A stretch of 64,000 nucleotides of DNA from NCBI GenBank assembly GCA_002894665.1, contig NCRB01000006.1, positions 1 to 64,000 on the forward strand, in the 5' to 3' direction. The notes below the pieces were generated by a model that worked only from the letters and a program-made list of their open reading frames with translations, was not told the origin of the DNA and searched no databases. Shown one piece after another: positions 40,138-50,146 of this stretch. Position numbers and translations under genes: made by a program. Every line of letters begins with the position of its first letter. Position 1 is the first letter of the stretch. Source of the stretch: Salinivenus iranica (GTDB lineage Bacteria; Bacteroidota; Rhodothermia; Rhodothermales; Salinibacteraceae).

Positions 40138-40211
40138 AGGCTCGTAGCTCAACCTGGTAGAGCAACGGACTCTTAATCCGTGAGTTGGGGGTTCGAATCC
40201 CCCCGGGCCTA
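40138..40211 (+). tRNA. tRNA-Lys (CTT)
   Basis: A 74-base cloverleaf. The acceptor stem is AGGCTCG (40138-40144) pairing with CGGGCCT (40204-40210), with one G-T pair, then discriminator A40211. The D stem is GCTC/GAGC and the anticodon stem ACGGA/TCCGT. The loop CTCTTAA carries anticodon CTT (reads AAG, Lys). The T-arm GGGGG-TTCGAAT-CCCCC is perfect. The 3' CCA is not encoded. It begins the accessory block. Confidence 0.95.
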
Positions 40212-40223
40212 CTTCTCTCTTTT

Positions 40224-40264
40224 CCCGCAATCTCCTGTCGTGCACAGGGGTGCGGGATTTTTAT
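40224..40264 (+). terminator. Rho-independent terminator after tRNA-Lys
   Basis: The stem is CCCGCA (40224-40229) with TGCGGG (40251-40256), extended internally by CTCCTGT pairing with ACAGGGG (one G-T pair), then ATTTTTATTT. It directly follows the tRNA 3' end. Confidence 0.85.
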
Positions 40265-40475
40265 TTGTGGCGGGTGTCGTGCCGGGCACAATTTTTTGCG
40301 GAAATGTTTCGACGCCCCTCTCCGATCCCCTTGCGGGCCGGTGCTCCGAAGAATCGACGATCGGTCGTTCGCATCTCTCAGTCGGGCCCCTGTGATCCCC
40401 ATTCTCTATTGATCATTGACCGCCCCGCGTCCGCGGCACGAGCTCCTCTGAAGCCGACCCGGGATCTCCCCTTGC

Positions 40476-40505
40476 TTGAATACGGAGTAGGTCGTGTGGT
40501 ATCCT
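40476..40505 (+). promoter_or_regulatory. Candidate promoter of the nuclease-ATPase-helicase genes
   Basis: TTGAAT (40476-40481), an 18-base spacer and TATCCT (40500-40505) lie 62 bases before ATG 40568. The spacing is good but the match to either the sigma-70 or the Bacteroidota TAnnTTTG box is imperfect. Confidence 0.3.
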
Positions 40506-40567
40506 GTGTTGGAGTGCAGGTCGATCCGGCCTGAATCCCGTGCACAGTCTCTCGTGAGGTCCTCACC

Positions 40568-41860
40568 ATGTCAGCTGATTTCTGTCAGATCCTATGCACG
40601 GGGGATGTGCATCTCGGCCGCCGGCCCTCCCGTGTGCCGGTCGAGGACGACGAGCTCTCGGTTCGGCACGTCTGGGAGCGCTTCGTGAAGACGGCGATCA
40701 ACCGGGAAGTAGACGTGGTCGCGCTGACGGGGGACATCGTCGACTCCGAGAACCAGATGTACGAAGCGCTCGGTCCCCTCGAGCGTGGCGTCCAGCGTCT
40801 CCTCGACGATGGGATCGAGATCGTGGCGGTGGCCGGCAACCACGATCACAGCGCGTTTCCCCGCCTCGCCCGTGCCCTCGACGCCGAGGGATTTCACCTG
40901 CTCGGCCCGGGTGGTGCTTGGGAGGAAGTCCAGATAGCCCCTGAAAGTGGCGAGACGGTTCGATTTGTGGGCTGGTCCTTTCCACAGCCCACCGTGCTCA
41001 CGTCTCCCCTCGCCGACGTGGAGATTGCGGAGACCGACGAGCCGACGATCGGCGTTCTCCACTGCGAAGCGGGATCGGGCGAAGGGCAGTACGCCCCCGT
41101 TCAGCGGGATGCACTCGCCCGGACGCCAGTCGACGCATGGCTCTTGGGGCACATCCATGCGCCCACTGATTACCGAGAAGCGGGACAGCTGCAGCTGTAC
41201 CCGGGCTCGCTTCAGCCCCTCGACCCGGGCGAGCCGGGCCCGCATGGCGCATGGCTGGTGGAGGTCGCCGACCAGGATGTGACCGCCGAGCAGATTCCAC
41301 TCGCCACGCTTCGGTACCAGGAGACGGCGGTGGACGTCTCCGACTGCGAGACGAGGGACGACGTGGAGGAAACGGTCCTCAACACGCTGCGGGACGGGGC
41401 GGCGGAGGTGGGCGAGCAGTATCCCAACCTGCGTCACGTTGCGCATCGGCTCCGGGTTGAAGGGCGCACGCACCTGCACCGGGAGATCGAAGAGACGCTC
41501 CGTGAAATGGTGGGGGCGGTCCGCCGGGAGGTGGATGAGGTCGCCGCAACCATCGAGAGGTTCAGGCTCGAGACCCGCCCGGACCACGACCTTGACGAGC
41601 TGGCCCGCACCGACGACCCGCCCGGCGTGCTCGCAGAGCTGCTTCTGACGCTGGAGCGCGAGGACGCAGCGGACGAGCGGGCCCGGCGCGTTCTCCGCGA
41701 GGCCTCCAAGGCCACACGGCAGGTCCATGAATCGAGCCGATACGAGCCCCTGCGGCGCGACTCGGAGACGCGGGATCCCCCCGGCCGAGAAGACCTTCGG
41801 TCGATGCTCTATCAACAGGGCCTGCTCTTGTTGGACGAGCTCCTAGCGGGGCGCGACTGA
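40568..41860 (+). CDS. YhaO/SbcD-like DNA repair exonuclease (metallophosphoesterase)
   Basis: A 430-residue protein of the Mre11/SbcD calcineurin-like group. Phosphoesterase motifs run in order: D13-V-H15 (TGDVHLGRR), LTGDIVDSE at about 54, AGNHDHS at about 90, GVLHCEAG, and LLGHIHAP at about 195, so the dimetal centre is complete. The C-terminal third (about 250-430) is acidic and helical with coiled-coil character. It resembles Bacillus YhaO and Rad50-partner nucleases. It is 54 bases before the YhaN/SbcC-like ATPase, which strongly suggests a nuclease-ATPase complex acting on DNA ends. ATG 40568 lies directly before the first motif. First gene of the accessory module. Confidence 0.88.
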   Translation: MSADFCQILCTGDVHLGRRPSRVPVEDDELSVRHVWERFVKTAINREVDVVALTGDIVDSENQMYEALGPLERGVQRLLDDGIEIVAVAGNHDHSAFPRLARALDAEGFHLLGPGGAWEEVQIAPESGETVRFVGWSFPQPTVLTSPLADVEIAETDEPTIGVLHCEAGSGEGQYAPVQRDALARTPVDAWLLGHIHAPTDYREAGQLQLYPGSLQPLDPGEPGPHGAWLVEVADQDVTAEQIPLATLRYQETAVDVSDCETRDDVEETVLNTLRDGAAEVGEQYPNLRHVAHRLRVEGRTHLHREIEETLREMVGAVRREVDEVAATIERFRLETRPDHDLDELARTDDPPGVLAELLLTLEREDAADERARRVLREASKATRQVHESSRYEPLRRDSETRDPPGREDLRSMLYQQGLLLLDELLAGRD

Positions 41861-41914
41861 GGCTGGAGGTCCGCCACATCTGCATCCTGATTCGTCGAGC
41901 CATTTTCTGCCCCC

Positions 41915-44900
41915 ATGTCCTCTTCAGACGAGCCGTCCGACGCAACACCGTCCTCGGATGTTCTCCGATTCCATCAGCTTCGCGTCAACCGGTTCAATGG
42001 CATCGAGCACGGGCTAGAGGTGGAGCTCTGTGACGGCGTCAATGTGATTCATGGGTCCAATGCCGCCGGGAAAACGACCCTCGCCCACGCGATCCGCGGA
42101 TTGCTCTGGCCCGAGCACGTCGATGAACAGCTCCCCATCGTGGAGGGCCGATTTCTTCTCGACGGGTCGACCTGGCGGGTGGGGCTGGAGGGGACAGGGT
42201 GCGTCTACACCAGAGACCAACGTCCGGCGAGCCGCCCAACCCTGCCGCCCGCCTCTCATGGGCCGCGCTACCACCTCTACCTGCACGATCTGTTGGGACG
42301 CGAGGAGGGGGAGGCGACGTTTGCGCAGCACATTTTGCGGGAGGCGCAGGGCGGCATTGACGTGGAGGGCGCCGCCAACGAGCTGGGGTTTGAGGTGCCG
42401 AACCGCCGGACCGCGCAGATCACCACCACAGTCGAAGACCTGCGCGAGAAGCGGGATGAGACGAAAGAGAACCAGGAAGCCCTCCGCCGCCGCGAGCAAA
42501 CGCTCGACGACCTTCGCGAGAAGAAGGCGGAGGCCGAGCAGGCGTCACGACGAGCCTCGGCGCTTGGGCAGGCGATAGAGGTGGCATCTGCCCGCCAGGC
42601 GCGCGACGAGGCGGAGGCGGCGCTCGACCCGTTCCCCGACGAGATGGATGCGGTCCAGGGCACCGAAGAGGAGCAGCTCGAGTCGCTGCGGGAGGCGGTG
42701 AGCGAGGCGGAGAGCAAACTCCAGGAGGCGGAGGCGCAGATGGAGGCGGCTCGGGAGACGATTGGGCAGAGCCGGATTCCAGAGGACGGTCTTCCAGAGG
42801 GGCGGGTCGAGGAGCTTCGAGGGGTGGTTTCCACCATCCGAGAACAAGAACGAGAGGTCCGAGAGTACCGATCGGAGGTGAAGGAGGCGGAGGAGAAAGA
42901 AGAAAGCGCGTGGGATCGCTTGCCGGCCGGCGTAGACAAGGACGCTGCCGCCGGCATCGATCTCCCCGATCTGCAGAAGATCGAGACGCACGTCAAAGCC
43001 GTTGAGGACGTTCAGGGACAACGGAAGGCCTTCGAGACAGCCAAGGATCTCTTTGAAGCAGCTGACCCCAATCCAGCGATCGATACGCTGAGAGACGGTC
43101 TGAAGCATCTCCATCGTTGGCTCCAGTTCTCGGGCGTGCCGGCCCGGTCTGATCTGGGATGGCTTCACTGGACCATTCTCATCGGAGGACTTCTCGTTGC
43201 CGCCGGGGGAGCTCTCTTGGGACTGCTGGGCACAGGATTGGCGACGGGAGTTGGCATTGGCCTCGCTGTTCTGGGAGTGCTGATTGCGGCAGCGGAAGGG
43301 TGGCGACGCATGCAGGCCGGAGAGAAAGGTAGCGGTCAGCGGGCCCTCCACGAAAGAGAGTACGAGCGCTTGGGGCTCGACGAACCGATCGACTGGTCGC
43401 GGAACGCCGTCGAGGAGCACGCAGACGCCCTTCTCGACCGGCTTCGGAAAGCGCACGTGGCCGTCGAGAAACAGGACACCTGGGCCCAATTGCAGTCGGA
43501 GTATGAGGACCTTGATGCAACAGAAGAGAAATTAGAAGAGGAGCGACAGCGGTTGGCTGAAGAGTTGGGGTTCGACCCGGATGCGGGGTCCCTTTCGTTG
43601 CCTGTGCTCCTGGAGCGGCTCTCTCGGTGGCAAGCTGCCTACGACGAAGTCGATTCCAAGCAGGCGGCTCTGGAAACTGCAAAGGACGAAGCTGAGAGGT
43701 GTCACGAACGCCTCAACGACGCGCTTGAAGAATACGAGCTGGGCCCGATCGACGACGCTAGCGAGGCAGAGGGAGCTGTACGCACGCTGAAGACGTCGCG
43801 GAATGAGTTCCAGGAGGCGGAACGGGACCTCGAGCAAGCCGAGAATCAGAAAGAGGACGCAATTCAAGATCGGGATAGTGCTGAGTCTGATATTGAGGAC
43901 CTGTACGACCGCCTGAATCTGGAGCAGGGTGCCGAGGACGAGCTACGAAACCTCGCCGGTCAGCACGAAGCCTACCAGGAAGCCATAGAAAAGGAGAGGG
44001 ACGCGGAGGCGACCTTGGAGGCAGAGCTCCGCCAGCTTCGTCGCATGGAGGCTCACGAGGAGCAAATGGAGGAGGCGACGAAGGAGGAGTTGCAGCGACA
44101 GCATGACACTGCCGAAGAGACGGCGGAGAAAGAGGAGGAATACGTCGATCAGATCAAAAGCATCGAACACGAGATCGAAAGCGCTCGGGAGGGAGGAACG
44201 CTGGAGGAGCGCCAGGCAAAATATCGCGAGCGTCGGGACGAGCTGGCAGACGAGCGCGAGCAGGACTACGAAAAGGCGGTCGGGAAGGCGCTCGCCGACT
44301 ACATTCAGGAGGAAACGCAAGATCAGGGTCTCCCACCGGTCTTCCATCGCGCCCGAGAGCTCTTTGGAGAGATCACGGACTACCGTTATGAGCTGTCGCT
44401 TGATCGGGGGAGCGCGTCTTTCAGGGCCTTCGACCGCGTCTATGAGAGGTCATTTGCCCTGGACGAGCTATCAAGCGGTACGAAGGTCCAGCTCATGCTG
44501 TCGGTCCGAATGGCCTTCCTCGAAACGCAAGAGCAGGCCTGCCGGGCGCCCTTGGTTCTCGACGAAACCCTCGCCAACAGCGACGCGGACCGGGCCCGCG
44601 CCATCATCGACGCCGTGAACACCATCTGTGAGGAGGGGCGGCAGGTGTTTTACCTGACCGCTCAGGCCGACGAGGTCCAGAAGTGGAACGCGCGGCTTGA
44701 GGGGACGGACGGTCCGAGCCACACCATCATCTCACTGGAAGAGCTCAACGCCCGCGATCTTGTGGAGACGGGCGGGGAGGGGGCCGTGGTGCCGGCTCGC
44801 CGGACGCCGGAGACGCTCCCGGATCCGGACGCAACGACGCACGAGGAGCTTCGGGCGACGCTGGATGTCCCGCGCTGGTCGCCCCGGCAACCGGTGGGGC

Positions 44901-45448
44901 GGCTGCATCTCTGGTACCTGATCGAGTCGCCCGGTCCCCTTCTCGATCTTATCGACAGCGGAACCCGGACGTGGGGACAGCTTGAGAATCGCCACCAGAT
45001 CGGCGGGATCGCGGCGACGACCTTCGACGCGCAGGGATTTCGGCGCATCCAGGCCCGGGCCCGCGCCGCGGCGGCCTGGAAAGAGGCCTGGCAGGTCGGG
45101 CGCGGGCGCCCGGTGGACCGCCCGGCCCTTGAGCAGACCGACGCGGTGACCGACACCTATATCGAGGGCGTGGCCGAGATTGCGAGCGAGCTCGAGGGAG
45201 ACGCCGAGGCTCTGCTTCGGATTGTCCGAGAGCGGGACGACGAGCGGGTGAGTGGCTTCCGGTCCAACAAGGCCGACGATCTGGAGGAGTACCTCCTGGA
45301 TCAGGGCCACCTCACCGAAAAAGACCCCCTCTCCGCGGAAGAGATGTGGCAGCGGGTCCTTGCCGACCTGACCGACGAGCGGGCGAAGGGGGGCCTCTCG
45401 GAAGACGATCTGGAACGGCTCTATGCTCGCCTGCAGTCCACTACGTAG
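41915..45448 (+). CDS. YhaN/SbcC-like SMC ATPase with TM hairpin and extra C-terminal domain
   Basis: An 1,177-residue Rad50/SbcC-type ATPase. Walker A is at 47-55 (GSNAAGKTT). Long acidic coiled coils span about 160-400 and 480-810. Between them, near 415-460, lies a strongly hydrophobic segment (WTILIGGLLVAAGGALLGLLG onwards), as in YhaN, so the hinge may be membrane-anchored. The signature ELSSGTKVQ is near 850 and Walker B LVLDETLAN near 880. After the ATPase end, about residues 950-1177 form an additional helical, acidic domain without a recognisable family. The gene follows the YhaO-like nuclease by 54 bases. Codon use in the coils (more AAA, GAA) looks less GC-rich than elsewhere. Function in repair or anti-phage defence is inferred. 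Confidence 0.82.
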   Translation: MSSSDEPSDATPSSDVLRFHQLRVNRFNGIEHGLEVELCDGVNVIHGSNAAGKTTLAHAIRGLLWPEHVDEQLPIVEGRFLLDGSTWRVGLEGTGCVYTRDQRPASRPTLPPASHGPRYHLYLHDLLGREEGEATFAQHILREAQGGIDVEGAANELGFEVPNRRTAQITTTVEDLREKRDETKENQEALRRREQTLDDLREKKAEAEQASRRASALGQAIEVASARQARDEAEAALDPFPDEMDAVQGTEEEQLESLREAVSEAESKLQEAEAQMEAARETIGQSRIPEDGLPEGRVEELRGVVSTIREQEREVREYRSEVKEAEEKEESAWDRLPAGVDKDAAAGIDLPDLQKIETHVKAVEDVQGQRKAFETAKDLFEAADPNPAIDTLRDGLKHLHRWLQFSGVPARSDLGWLHWTILIGGLLVAAGGALLGLLGTGLATGVGIGLAVLGVLIAAAEGWRRMQAGEKGSGQRALHEREYERLGLDEPIDWSRNAVEEHADALLDRLRKAHVAVEKQDTWAQLQSEYEDLDATEEKLEEERQRLAEELGFDPDAGSLSLPVLLERLSRWQAAYDEVDSKQAALETAKDEAERCHERLNDALEEYELGPIDDASEAEGAVRTLKTSRNEFQEAERDLEQAENQKEDAIQDRDSAESDIEDLYDRLNLEQGAEDELRNLAGQHEAYQEAIEKERDAEATLEAELRQLRRMEAHEEQMEEATKEELQRQHDTAEETAEKEEEYVDQIKSIEHEIESAREGGTLEERQAKYRERRDELADEREQDYEKAVGKALADYIQEETQDQGLPPVFHRARELFGEITDYRYELSLDRGSASFRAFDRVYERSFALDELSSGTKVQLMLSVRMAFLETQEQACRAPLVLDETLANSDADRARAIIDAVNTICEEGRQVFYLTAQADEVQKWNARLEGTDGPSHTIISLEELNARDLVETGGEGAVVPARRTPETLPDPDATTHEELRATLDVPRWSPRQPVGRLHLWYLIESPGPLLDLIDSGTRTWGQLENRHQIGGIAATTFDAQGFRRIQARARAAAAWKEAWQVGRGRPVDRPALEQTDAVTDTYIEGVAEIASELEGDAEALLRIVRERDDERVSGFRSNKADDLEEYLLDQGHLTEKDPLSAEEMWQRVLADLTDERAKGGLSEDDLERLYARLQSTT

Positions 45449-45629
45449 CCCCCTGACGAGCCGTCATCGTATTCAGGACCGCAGCCCAGAGGCCTAGCGG
45501 ACGCAGACGGAGGATCGAGGCGCGCTCCTCTGGCATCCTGCGACGTCGGAATTTTGTAATAGGGGGCGGAAGGTCCTTTCTTGGGGGTGCCTCTCTGCTG
45601 TAGTTCTTCCCATCCGCCTCTTCGCCTCC

Positions 45630-48482
45630 ATGGCACCAGACACCATCGCCCCCGGCCCCCGCGTCCGCATCCGCGACGCCGAGTGGCTCGTGAAGCGCAC
45701 CGATCGCACGTCCGACGGCGGGCAAGTGCTCGACGTCGTCGGTCTCTCCGAACTCGTAGAGGACCAGGAGGCGCGGTTTCTCCGCGAACTGGAGGAGGAT
45801 ACCCTCGAAGTCATCGATCCGGCCGAGACGGAGCTGCGGCAAGACACCTCCCCCGGCTTCCGCCAGTCGCGGCTCTACATGGAAAGCAGGCTCCGGAATC
45901 GGGCCCCGACGGACGAAAAGCTGCACGTCGGCCACCAGGCCGCGATTGACCAGATGTCGTACCAGTGGACGCCGGCCCTTCAGGCCCTGGAGCAGCCTCG
46001 CCAGCGCATCCTCATTGCCGACGCGACGGGACTCGGGAAGACGATGGAGGCGGGGATCCTAATGAGCGAACTGATTGAGCGGGGTCGCGGGAAGCGCATC
46101 CTTGTGGTTGCGCTTAAGAGCATGATGACCCAGCTCCAGAAGGAGTGGTGGAGCCGCTTCACGATTCCGCTCGTGCGGCTCGACTCCCGCGGCATCCAGC
46201 GCGTCCGCCAGCGCATCCCGGCCAACCAGAATCCCTTCTACTACTACGACAAGACGATCATCTCGATCGATACGCTCAAGCGGGGGGCGGAGTACCGGAC
46301 GTACATCGAGGACGCGAACTGGGACATCGTCGTCGTGGACGAGGCGCAAAACGCGGCCAAGCGGGGGAGCACGGAGTCGCAGCGGCACCGCCTGGCCGAC
46401 CAGCTGTCCCGCCGGTGTGACACGATGATTATGCTCTCGGCCACCCCGCACGACGGAAGCCCGGAAAGCTTCGCAAGCCTCATGAACATGCTCGATCCGA
46501 CGGCCATCGCCAACCCGTCGGACTACACGCGGGCGGACATCGACGGCCTTTTCGTTCGGCGCTTCAAGGGCGACATCAAGAACCAGGTGGATAGCGCCTT
46601 TCAGGACCGGGACATGGGGATCTGTAAGGCCGAGTCGACCGAGGCGGAAGAAGCGGTCTACGATACGCTCGCCAACCTGGAGTTTACGGCCATCGACGAG
46701 GAGGGAGGCGGCGATATGCTCTTCCGCACGACACTGGAGAAGGCAATGTTTTCCAGCCCGGCCGCGTGTCTCGAAACGGTCGAGAACCGCATCGAGCGCC
46801 TGGAGGCGGAAGGAGATCCGGCGTACGAGCACGATCTCCGGGAATTGCGGGATCTGGCCGCCCAACTCCGCACCATCGGTCCCGGCCAGTTCAGCAAGTA
46901 CCAGCGACTGCTCCGGCTCCTTCGCGGGGAATCCGGAATCGACTGGGATGGGACCGACCCCCAGGACCGCCTCGTCCTCTTCAGCGAACGGCTCGAAACG
47001 CTCCGCTTCCTGGAGACGCACCTGCAGGCGGAGCTCGACCTGCCGGCGGGCGCCATTCAAAAGCTGCACGGCGGGCTTTCGGATGTGGATCAGCAAGAGG
47101 TGGTGGAGGCCTTCGGGAAAGACGAGGCGGACGTGCGCCTGCTGCTGGCGTCCGACATCGCCGCGGAGGGCATCAACCTGCACTACCTCTGTCACCGGCT
47201 CATCCACTTCGACATCCCGTGGTCGCTGATGCTGTTTCAGCAGCGGAACGGCCGCATTGACCGCTACGGGCAGACCGAGGCGCCCCAAATCCGCTACATG
47301 GTCACCACGCCGAAGAACGAGGACATCCACGGAGACCAGCGCATCCTGGAGGTGCTAATCGAGAAGGAGCAGCAGGCGGAGGCCAACATCGACGATCCGG
47401 CCTCCCTGATGGGGGTCTACGACGTCGAGGAGGAGCAGAAGAGGACCGCCGACGCCATGGAGTCCGGCCAGTCGCCCGAGGAGTTCGACGACGATCTGGA
47501 ACCCGAGGAGACGGATGTAATGGAACTGCTCCTCGGAGACGATGCGGACGACGAGCAGGAGGACCCGGCTGAGAATGTGGTGGCGCCGACGTCCCTCTAC
47601 GACAGCGAGTTTGCGTACATGAGCGCTGCACTCCGGCACCTCAACGAACATCGGGGGGCAGGCCTCGACTTCGACCTGTACGACGAGGACGATACGATCC
47701 GCCTTACCGCCTCCGACGAGATCGAAGAGCGCTTCGACCGACTCCCCGATGAAGCCTGGCCGGAGGACGACGTATTTTTTCTGTCGGCGGACCCGGACGA
47801 GGTCCAGCAGTCGATCGCCGACGCCCGCAAAGAGGAGCGCGCCTGGCCGCAGGTCCAGTACCTCTGGCGGCTGCACCCCCTCTCGCAGTGGGCGGGCGAT
47901 AAGGTGGTGGCCAACTTCCAGCGGAACGAGGCGCCGGTGCTTCCGCTGCCGACGCTCGGGGCGGAGGAAACGATCGTCCTCTGTTCGGGAAACGTCCCCA
48001 ACCGAAAGGGGCAGCCCGTGGTCAACGACTGGGTGGGCGTGCACTTCTGGAAGGAGATGGGCCCGGAGACGCTATCGCTCGAAGATGTATTGGACGAGAC
48101 GAAGCTGCGCCGGCAACGGATTCCGAATCCGGCCCCGGACCTCGACCTTGACGCCCTGCAGGAGCGGGTTCCCTCGGCGGTGCAGGCCGCCCGCGACTGG
48201 ATGGACGCCCGCCGCGACGAGACGAACGAGCGCCTCAACGAGAAGCTCAATGAGACGCTCCAGGCCCTGGAAGAGCTACAGGATGAGCACGAGCGCCAGT
48301 TGGAAATGAAGTACGCGGACAGCGACCGGCCGGCGTCCATCATTGAGCCCAAAAAGAAAAAGGAGCGGCGGGAGATCGAGCGCATCTTCGACGACTTCTT
48401 CGAGTGGGCCGAGAATACGATGACGATCGAAGAGAGGGCGTACATCCAAGTCATCGCGGTGCTCACGGGCACCGAGAACTGA
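45630..48482 (+). CDS. SNF2/RapA-like helicase, DEAD/DEAH superfamily 2
   Basis: A 950-residue superfamily-2 ATPase. An N-terminal domain (residues 1-110) precedes motif I ADATGLGKTMEAG at about 130-142. Motif II is DEAQ at about 235 (VVVDEAQNAA) and motif III LSATPHDGSP at about 270. The second RecA lobe (about 445-580) has FSERLETLRFLETHL, LLASDIAAEGINL and motif VI QQRNGRIDRYGQ. Residues 600-950 form a long acidic C-terminal region ending in helical coils. The layout resembles RapA and the DrmD helicases of DISARM. It follows the ATPase gene by 181 bases on the same strand, and is probably the third component of the module. Substrate unknown. Confidence 0.85.
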   Translation: MAPDTIAPGPRVRIRDAEWLVKRTDRTSDGGQVLDVVGLSELVEDQEARFLRELEEDTLEVIDPAETELRQDTSPGFRQSRLYMESRLRNRAPTDEKLHVGHQAAIDQMSYQWTPALQALEQPRQRILIADATGLGKTMEAGILMSELIERGRGKRILVVALKSMMTQLQKEWWSRFTIPLVRLDSRGIQRVRQRIPANQNPFYYYDKTIISIDTLKRGAEYRTYIEDANWDIVVVDEAQNAAKRGSTESQRHRLADQLSRRCDTMIMLSATPHDGSPESFASLMNMLDPTAIANPSDYTRADIDGLFVRRFKGDIKNQVDSAFQDRDMGICKAESTEAEEAVYDTLANLEFTAIDEEGGGDMLFRTTLEKAMFSSPAACLETVENRIERLEAEGDPAYEHDLRELRDLAAQLRTIGPGQFSKYQRLLRLLRGESGIDWDGTDPQDRLVLFSERLETLRFLETHLQAELDLPAGAIQKLHGGLSDVDQQEVVEAFGKDEADVRLLLASDIAAEGINLHYLCHRLIHFDIPWSLMLFQQRNGRIDRYGQTEAPQIRYMVTTPKNEDIHGDQRILEVLIEKEQQAEANIDDPASLMGVYDVEEEQKRTADAMESGQSPEEFDDDLEPEETDVMELLLGDDADDEQEDPAENVVAPTSLYDSEFAYMSAALRHLNEHRGAGLDFDLYDEDDTIRLTASDEIEERFDRLPDEAWPEDDVFFLSADPDEVQQSIADARKEERAWPQVQYLWRLHPLSQWAGDKVVANFQRNEAPVLPLPTLGAEETIVLCSGNVPNRKGQPVVNDWVGVHFWKEMGPETLSLEDVLDETKLRRQRIPNPAPDLDLDALQERVPSAVQAARDWMDARRDETNERLNEKLNETLQALEELQDEHERQLEMKYADSDRPASIIEPKKKKERREIERIFDDFFEWAENTMTIEERAYIQVIAVLTGTEN

Positions 48483-48576: not shown

Positions 48577-48813
48577 ATGCCAACCCTCACGATCAAAGGC
48601 GTGCCGCCGGAGCTCCACGAGAAGCTGAAAGAGCGCGCGGAGCGCCACCGCCGCAGCATGAACAACGAGCTGCTCACGATTCTGGAGCGCACGCTGACGC
48701 CGTCCCGAAAGTCCGCCGAAGAGGCCATCGCCGAGGCCGAAGCGCTTAACGACCGGATTGGAAAAACCTTTCCGGACATCGTCAACGAAGCCAAACGGAA
48801 GGGCCGCGCATGA
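48577..48813 (+). CDS. FitA/VapB-type ribbon-helix-helix antitoxin
   Basis: A 78-residue antitoxin of the FitA-like Arc family. The N-terminal strand and helices read TLTIKGVPPELHEKLKERAERHRRS, then MNNELLTILERTL, typical for ribbon-helix-helix DNA-binding dimers. The C-terminal residues would wrap a PIN toxin. The stop (48811-48813) overlaps the start of the PIN-domain gene (ATG 48810) by four bases, the usual antitoxin-toxin arrangement. The toxin gene is truncated, so this is probably an orphan antitoxin now, though it could still repress its own promoter or neutralise toxins made elsewhere. Confidence 0.85.
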   Translation: MPTLTIKGVPPELHEKLKERAERHRRSMNNELLTILERTLTPSRKSAEEAIAEAEALNDRIGKTFPDIVNEAKRKGRA

Positions 48814-49022
48814 TCGTCGTCGACAACGATGTGATCAGCTACTTTTGGATTCGGATGGACACCGAGCGGGCGTCTCTGGCCCAAGACGTTCGGGAGCGCG
48901 ATCCGGACTGGGTCGCGCCTCGGGTGTGGCGCTCGGAGTTTCGGAACGTCCTGCGAGGCTACATGTCTGGAGGCTACATGACCCTGGCCGAGGCCATCGA
49001 CCATGGCTCTCGCGGTTTCTGA
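48810..49022 (+). pseudogene. Truncated PIN-domain (VapC/FitB) toxin
   Basis: A 70-residue open frame with a PIN-domain N-terminal half: VVDNDVISYFWI holds the first catalytic Asp, and RVWRSEFRNVL holds the conserved acidic Glu after APxxWxxE. PIN toxins are about 130-140 residues; here the reading stops at TGA 49020-49022 (residues SRGF), soon after ARG-type helix LAEAIDHG, so the third and fourth acidic residues are missing. The sequence past this point is a helicase in another frame, showing a deletion or recombination junction near 49005-49020. It is presumably not active. Confidence 0.8.
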
Positions 49023-50146
49023 AGCGGCACGAGTACGAATACACAATCGACTACGGCGGGCAGGCCGACGATCTTTGGGAAAAGGCTCTGATGGTTGGAC
49101 CGGACGGACGCGATCCGACCTTTCTTCGCAATGAGTGGGAGCAGGTGATCCAGCCGAACGGAATTCGGTCGGAAGCGGAATACATGCGCGTGAGCCGAAT
49201 CGGGCGGGGCACGCCACTGCACCGCTCAGAGCGGGCGGACATCTGGCCTGTCTTCGACGAGTACCAGTCCCTACTCGACGAGAAGAAGCTCCGAGAGCGG
49301 CCCGGCGCCCTGCGCGACGCTCGCCACATCCTGGACGAGAAGGGCGACATCCTGCCCTACCAATCCATTCTCGTCGACGAGGCACAGGACATGGGGAAGC
49401 AGGCCTTCAAGCTCATCCGGCAGATGATTCCGGGGGGCGACCAGGAACACGATCTCTTCATCGTCGGGGACGCGCATCAGCGCATATACGACCGCCAGGT
49501 GGTGCTTGGCCATTGCGGCATCAACATTGTCGGCCGCGGCTACAAGCTGCGCGTCAACTACCGCACGACTGAGGAGAATCGGCAGTGGGCCGTTGGCCTC
49601 CTTCAGGGCGTCGAATATGACGATCTGGACGGCGGAGTGGACGACCAGGAGGTGTACAAGTCTCTGATGCGAGGGGAGGAGCCCCGGGTTGAGGCCTTTG
49701 AGACGTTCCAGGCCGAGGCGGATGCAATTGCCGAGTACCTGGAGAAAAGAAACGAAGACGACGAATCTTTACGTGACACGTGCATCATTGCCCGCACGAA
49801 GTCGCTTCTCGACAATTACAGCGGGGCTCTCCGCGCTGCCGATCTCGACACGTATCCCATCCGGAATGATCGGGCCGAGGACCGGTCGGCGCCGGGCGTC
49901 CGACTGGCGACGATGCACCGGGCGAAGGGCCTGGAGTTCGAGCGCGTGATCATCCCCGGGGTGAGTGAAGGAATCATGCCCTTCGACCCCGCCCTCTCGA
50001 GGGCGGAGGATGAGGCGACCCGCGCAGAGGTCCAGAAGCGTGAGCGGTCTCTGCTGTACGTGTCCGTTACCCGTGCGAGGCGAGACGTGATCGTGACCTG
50101 CCACGATGCCCCCAGTCTGTTTTTGGAGTTAGGCTCCCAAGATTAG
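49013..50146 (+). pseudogene. N-terminally deleted UvrD-like helicase
   Basis: From about 49013 the second frame encodes a UvrD/Rep superfamily-1 helicase: RFLKRHEYEYTIDYGG, then ILVDEAQDMGKQAFKL (motif II) at about 49373, IVGDAHQRIYD (motif III), LRVNYRTTEENR (motif IV), LATMHRAKGLEFERVI (motif V) and RERSLLYVSVTRARRDV (motif VI). The N-terminal part with Walker A (motif Ia/I), roughly the first 200-plus residues, is absent; upstream in this frame there is only the antitoxin/toxin pair. It cannot hydrolyse ATP as it stands. Any expression would need an internal start such as ATG 49091. It marks the right side of the accessory block. Confidence 0.85.

Follow-up and report, generated by a model that had tools for sequence, protein, structure and literature searches.

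Whether a nuclease, an ATPase and a helicase gene that lie side by side form one defence system is the question raised by a locus of Salinivenus iranica (assembly GCA_002894665.1, contig NCRB01000006.1; the whole 64,000-nucleotide stretch analyzed, positions 1 to 64,000 of the forward strand, is called the window here). The genome that carries it is 3.4 Mb and 98.8% complete. As the original prediction stated, a tRNA-Lys(CTT) gene (bp 40138-40212, + strand, called by ARAGORN) is followed by three intact open reading frames (ORFs) on the same strand; these encode a YhaO/SbcD-like metallophosphoesterase nuclease of 430 amino acids (bp 40568-41860), a Rad50/YhaN-like coiled-coil ATPase of 1177 (bp 41915-45448) and a BrxHII/RapA-like helicase of 950 (bp 45630-48482). 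That prediction took the three for an undescribed nuclease-ATPase-helicase system. The block is instead quite probably two modules inside one tRNA-Lys genomic island, namely the nuclease-ATPase pair and a decayed ARMADA Type II operon.

The identity of the helicase can be read from its relatives. It is SNF2/RapA-like, and its closest profile models are those of DrmD (341.7 bits, cut-off 610), so its earlier description as RapA/DrmD-like is apt even though the score is below cut-off. Its best full-length relatives, 45-48% identical, are proteins of E. coli, Klebsiella and cyanobacterial plasmids, and it aligns from end to end, at 46-49% identity, with the ArmA-position helicases of the E. coli and cyanobacterial plasmids. 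In those plasmids the helicase (∼950 amino acids) is the first gene of an operon that continues with a type IIG/PglX-like methyltransferase (∼1640), a giant DEAD YprA-like helicase (∼2110) and a UvrD helicase (∼700); ArmA is followed by ArmB, ArmC and ArmD in this way on plasmids of E. coli, Nostoc, Pseudanabaena, Microvirga, Martelella, Tsukamurella and Streptomyces. The published ARMADA description defines Type II as ArmA-ArmB-ArmC-ArmD, and reports that the system protects E. coli from phages and that all four Arm genes are required (Bell et al. 2025, PMC12458937). By homology, the window helicase is ArmA, intact and orphaned.

The co-occurrence of the three genes does not bear out a three-gene system. 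Outside the two sister genomes (that of the window and Salinivenus lutea), the ARMADA loci examined are those of two genus mates and of plasmids from E. coli, cyanobacteria, alphaproteobacteria and actinobacteria; in every one of them ArmB adjoins ArmA and the nuclease-ATPase pair is missing. Conversely, almost all of the ∼80 loci with the pair lack the helicase. Among 27 genomes of the family, nine have the full pair and four have ArmA, and both are found together in two, versus 1.3 expected by chance. The pair adjoins ArmA only in the window genome and in Salinivenus lutea, at the same tRNA-Lys site. The candidate three-gene system is accordingly rejected, since the fixed partners of the helicase are ArmB-ArmD and the pair occurs without it.

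What became of the other Arm genes is visible directly downstream of ArmA. A FitA-like ribbon-helix-helix antitoxin gene (bp 48577-48813, + strand; FitA-like_RHH 9.6e-14), a 69% identical copy of which follows ArmA in S. lutea (L026:5978-6217), is overlapped at its stop codon (ATGA) by a truncated FitB-like gene in the toxin position (bp 48810-49022, + strand), and this in turn is cut by a deletion junction at ∼48997-49004. Beyond the junction lies the C-terminal part of a UvrD-family helicase (bp 49004-50146, + strand), which has lost its N-terminal domain and first helicase motifs. Its identity is 87% to S. lutea ArmD (residues 335-648) and 44% to the protein in the ArmD position of E. coli (residues 326-701). 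In S. lutea the order is ArmA, FitA-like antitoxin, ArmB, ∼24 kb of other DNA (genes for secreted proteins, an AAA_21 ATPase and a pPIWI-RE module), ArmC and ArmD. The match between the window and S. lutea DNA stops at bp 48952 and restarts at bp 48998, and in S. lutea 37.1 kb separate these two points. Neither ArmB nor ArmC has a match in the genome to which the window belongs, whereas the three other genus members that carry this ArmA, namely S. lutea (G013) and the genomes G020 and G022, each have both. A deletion thus joined the ArmD remnant to the toxin-antitoxin gene, and ArmB and ArmC were lost; the window has the derived state at this junction, because part of one gene is fused to part of another. 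Since ArmB and ArmC are absent from the genome, its ARMADA should be nonfunctional, a prediction drawn by analogy from the E. coli genetics. The toxin-antitoxin remnant and broken helicase noticed in the original prediction are therefore both real, as is the inference that such debris marks a defence island, but the helicase fragment is the other end of ArmA's own operon and not unrelated island debris.

Two features of the S. lutea operon may be mentioned here. Its ArmD frame ends at 649 amino acids (L137:7260-9209), and DNA homology to the longer window fragment runs past that stop; the S. lutea ARMADA may also be impaired, or the assembly may be in error at ArmD. In addition, the pPIWI-RE module (pPIWI_RE and its restriction endonuclease) lies directly upstream of ArmC-ArmD (L137:7260-18086 and L138:1391-2521), an adjacency of which no description was found in the accessible portions of the ARMADA and pPIWI-RE literature.

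Comparison with S. lutea, the nearest relative found, also shows the nature of the site. There, tRNA-Lys is followed by an element of ∼47 kb that carries a Phage_integrase gene (C2, ∼54-101 kb; L134, L135 and L136) and is missing from the window. Just before the nuclease gene, this element closes with a repeat of the tRNA-Lys 3′ end, an att site (L026:14624-14528; 95% identical over 97 bp); the duplicated part corresponds to the window tRNA gene from bp 40164 on and lies 47 kb away in S. lutea. Different genes lie downstream of tRNA-Lys in other genus members. The gene is an integration hotspot, and the original prediction was right about the tRNA-Lys site. On the other side, the variable region ends between bp 50147 and 50433 (blastn), beyond which the chromosome again matches an S. 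lutea contig (C57, 96%); a tRNA-Lys/att repeat was sought at this right border, and none was found. Synonymous divergence (dS) between the two species is 0.075-0.086 for core genes versus 0.22 for the nuclease, 0.45 for the ATPase, 0.66 for ArmA and 0.67 for the ArmD fragment, and DNA identity along the block varies from 68% to 98%. The raised dS values and swinging identity point to exchange with divergent copies, as for an island.

The other module, the nuclease-ATPase pair, was followed through homologs of its ATPase, which were sought within the genus and family, on plasmids and across a set with a single genome for each species; the last search gave 145 relatives, of which 80 were kept. 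Neighbor maps were made with a simple ORF caller that missed some frames and are approximate. ORF calling places the nuclease gene directly upstream of the ATPase gene in 63 of the 66 testable loci, and the count rises to 64 with the L051 nuclease, in a frame missed by the caller and recovered by tblastn; of the other exceptions, L108 is a remnant and L052 has only the C-terminal end of the nuclease. In 31 of the 63 loci there is a four-base overlap between the genes, and neighbors other than each other are variable across the mapped loci. The pair is thus a strict two-gene operon of the YhaO/YhaN (SbcEF) kind, and represents a C-terminally extended branch of it.

The nuclease (Pfam Metallophos, 5.8e-11) has the complete set of Mre11-type catalytic motifs foreseen in the original prediction (D13/H15, G55-D56, N91-H92-D93, H165 and H195/H197), all invariant in a 10-member alignment, and in a profile search its nearest solved structures are those of Mre11/SbcD; from the complete motifs, the enzyme is predicted to be a metal-dependent nuclease that acts on ends or hairpins of DNA. 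The ATPase (AAA_23, 1.4e-7; its profile finds Rad50 structures at 1.8e-8) contains Walker A (GSNAAGKT), signature (LSSGT) and Walker B (LVLDETLAN) motifs. Its AlphaFold2 (AF2) model, which matches SMC/Rad50 structures, shows both ATPase lobes, the long arms of the coiled coil and a pair of hydrophobic helices (residues 415-438 and 442-468); the predicted local distance difference test (pLDDT) value is 79 and the predicted template modeling (pTM) score 0.39, so the domain arrangement is unreliable. The hydrophobic insert in the coiled coil, which had been noticed at the outset, is a helical hairpin between the arms (residues ∼415-468, bp 43157-43318, + strand), a predicted membrane anchor that is present in 81 of 81 homologs; a CxxC zinc hook was sought in the coiled coil of the same 81 and found in none. 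The large tail, also recognized at the outset, is an all-helical C-terminal domain (residues ∼976-1174, bp 44840-45436, + strand), conserved in a 50-member alignment. Modeled alone by AF2 it has a pLDDT of 93.9, and its fold has no significant match in the PDB or in BFVD (viral) and none in Pfam.

Classical YhaO-YhaN pairs are also present in the family (L149 in genome G003 and L151 in G016), and they score above the cut-off for the AAA_27 (YhaN) profile with 61 and 46 bits. They match the ATPase profile of the pair at 7e-18 and 8e-21 and its nuclease profile at 1e-42 and 8e-36, respectively, in keeping with the resemblance to YhaO/YhaN first proposed. Because both also carry the hairpin, it is likely an ancestral YhaN trait, and it is the C-terminal domain that sets this branch apart from classical YhaN.

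The pair is present in Rhodothermota, Bacteroidota, Planctomycetota, haloarchaea, Thermomicrobiota, Myxococcota and others, and its tree groups mostly by phylum, with several exceptions. Phage or viral carriage was considered and rejected, as no relatives were found in IMG/VR or in the phage collection. Near-identical pairs lie on plasmids of different haloarchaeal genera (L021, L022 and L023), which suggests plasmid-borne spread; genes for a ∼1300-amino-acid protein and for one containing an NrS-1 polymerase-like domain are close by. The pair is also being lost within the genus; G022 has a decayed ATPase copy (the C-terminal half, with one internal stop) at an S. ruber-type location (L034:5540-7042). 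Many of the ATPase relatives come from hypersaline or soda-lake organisms, for part of which a halophile query bias may account.

By analogy, the pair most likely works like Mre11-Rad50/SbcCD, in which case two ATPase heads would clamp DNA on ATP binding and the metallophosphoesterase would resect or cleave DNA ends or hairpins. In the coiled coil, the hydrophobic hairpin takes the place of a zinc hook and would hold the complex at the membrane, and the added helical C-terminal domain probably binds a partner. DNA-end processing, in the service of repair, of foreign-DNA destruction or of both, is favored as the everyday role of the pair because BREX- or ARMADA-type genes are near it in few of the ∼80 loci, because PADLOC families are not clearly enriched around it, and because AddA-like helicase-nuclease genes lie just upstream of it in two distant lineages, Fuchsiella alkaliacetigena (L069, 4e-58 to AddA) and a verrucomicrobial bin (L098, 3e-17). 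The PADLOC comparison, of 100 genes near the pair with 100 far from it (>5.5 kb), gave no clear excess, but it is a weak test based on family tallies only; UvrD/GajB accounts for four of the 100 near genes, and no family exceeds two of the 100 far genes. A general association of the pair with defence islands was rejected on this comparison, with the same reservation about its power. In F. alkaliacetigena, the pair lies in a co-directional run between the AddA-like gene and an ArmD-like UvrD helicase gene (485 bits to the ArmD profile; L069:2184-15670).

It is possible, at somewhat less than even chances, that the pair is a plain chromosomal repair paralog of SbcEF whose location in a defence island is accidental. 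The AddA-like genes, the tree grouped mostly by phylum and the weak defence enrichment would all fit, as would the listing of SbcEF as implicated in double-strand-break repair (PMC6452273), although the literature on YhaN/SbcEF function is thin and SbcEF was dispensable in a nickase assay (PMC12748557). Such a paralog would nevertheless leave unexplained why the pair directly adjoins BrxHII-type helicases at loci that are not linked, why it is mosaic and highly divergent relative to core genes, and why it occurs on plasmids.

A role of the pair as an anti-phage module in itself, either alone or as an exchangeable nuclease add-on of methylase systems with a BrxHII/ArmA helicase (BREX, ARMADA), is rather unlikely, yet it is this that the adjacencies would favor. 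In G023, a member of another genus, the pair closes a PglX-PglZ-BrxHII-nuclease-ATPase run with gaps of 59, 59, 27 and 59 bases; in a second BREX locus of S. lutea (L047), a nuclease fragment follows shortly after BrxHII; and in the window and S. lutea, the pair stands immediately before ArmA. Since ArmA is also BrxHII-like, a functional link between the pair and BREX-ARMADA is conceivable, and a link to helicase-methylase defence is possible. The patchy spread, the haloarchaeal plasmids and a Cas2/3-like gene near one pair argue in the same direction. Against it stand the small number of loci with ARMADA or BREX genes near the pair and the absence of a clear PADLOC excess, weak as that test is; clustering in islands alone could unite such genes. 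The Cas2/3 (type I-F-like) gene lies, with a 777-amino-acid gene, ahead of the pair on one strand in a Desulfohalobiaceae bin (L104:2465-13453). Less probable still is the more specific proposal that the extended branch is a portable membrane-tethered nuclease whose C-terminal domain would dock with helicases of the BrxHII/ArmA type, which would make it an interchangeable effector of methylation-based defence systems such as BREX and ARMADA. Finally, a functional complex of the three proteins (nuclease, ATPase and ArmA) is very improbable: both sister species have the trio in the same order on one strand, the gap before ArmA is conserved at 181-182 bases, and the three genes are intact, with ratios of nonsynonymous to synonymous substitution (dN/dS) of 0.16-0.22, but the trio is seen only in those two genomes at one tRNA-Lys site, S. 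lutea has the remaining Arm genes downstream too, and ArmA has different fixed partners elsewhere and is not associated with the pair in the family.

The interpretation of the block as an end-processing pair beside a decayed ARMADA Type II operon has some observations against it. ArmA is still intact, with a dN/dS of ∼0.16 versus S. lutea, and so may retain some use or may have been orphaned recently. Several loci of the Salinibacteraceae have the pair beside BREX or ARMADA, and a role in repair alone does not account for this. The AAA_27 score of the ATPase is at or just under the cut-off of 22 (16.9 bits as a protein, 21.9 in the genome search and 22.8 with its neighbors), and anchorage of the ATPase by its hairpin is predicted from hydropathy and the model.

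The three-gene defence system was thus a false lead, replaced by an ARMADA island decaying at a tRNA hotspot. The same comparison delimits a widespread, almost unstudied Mre11-Rad50-like branch that has a conserved domain without structural match and a predicted membrane anchor where the zinc hook would be, and because this branch repeatedly meets BrxHII-type helicases within one family, a link of DNA-end nucleases to BREX-ARMADA can be tested directly.

Among known systems, membership in DISARM, Wadjet, Lamassu and Druantia was rejected by scores or missing partners. Lamassu LmuB, Wadjet JetC and DISARM DrmD share weak SMC-like or helicase-like profile matches with the block, but the scores are partial or below cut-off and the partner genes absent, in agreement with the original prediction; among the neighboring proteins scanned there is no DrmA, DrmB or DrmC to accompany the DrmD match (341.7/610 bits) and no LmuA to accompany the partial LmuB match (8e-20). 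BREX with BrxHII resembles the block in that the pair closes the G023 run, but PglZ, PglX and BrxC have no match in the window block, and PglX and PglZ lie beside the pair only in G023. With ARMADA Type II the window shares its ArmA helicase, the UvrD fragment that corresponds to ArmD and a tRNA-associated island; it differs by the absence of ArmB and ArmC and of the N-terminal half of ArmD, which in ARMADA is a RelE-like domain fused to a UvrD helicase and of which the window keeps the C-terminal part only. ARMADA as described (PMC12458937) does not include the upstream pair. SbcCD and Mre11-Rad50 have the same nuclease motifs and ATPase head architecture, whereas the window ATPase has a hydrophobic hairpin in place of the CxxC hook and an extra C-terminal domain. 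Closest to the pair are the YhaO-YhaN (SbcEF) operons of the Bacillus type, which likewise consist of a metallophosphoesterase and a coiled-coil ATPase gene, and the mid-protein hairpin is shared by the comparators L149 and L151; these end at 925-971 amino acids, whereas the window ATPase adds a ∼200-residue helical domain (to ∼1174), its N-terminal lobe is divergent, and its clade lies well apart from the classical pairs in the tree.

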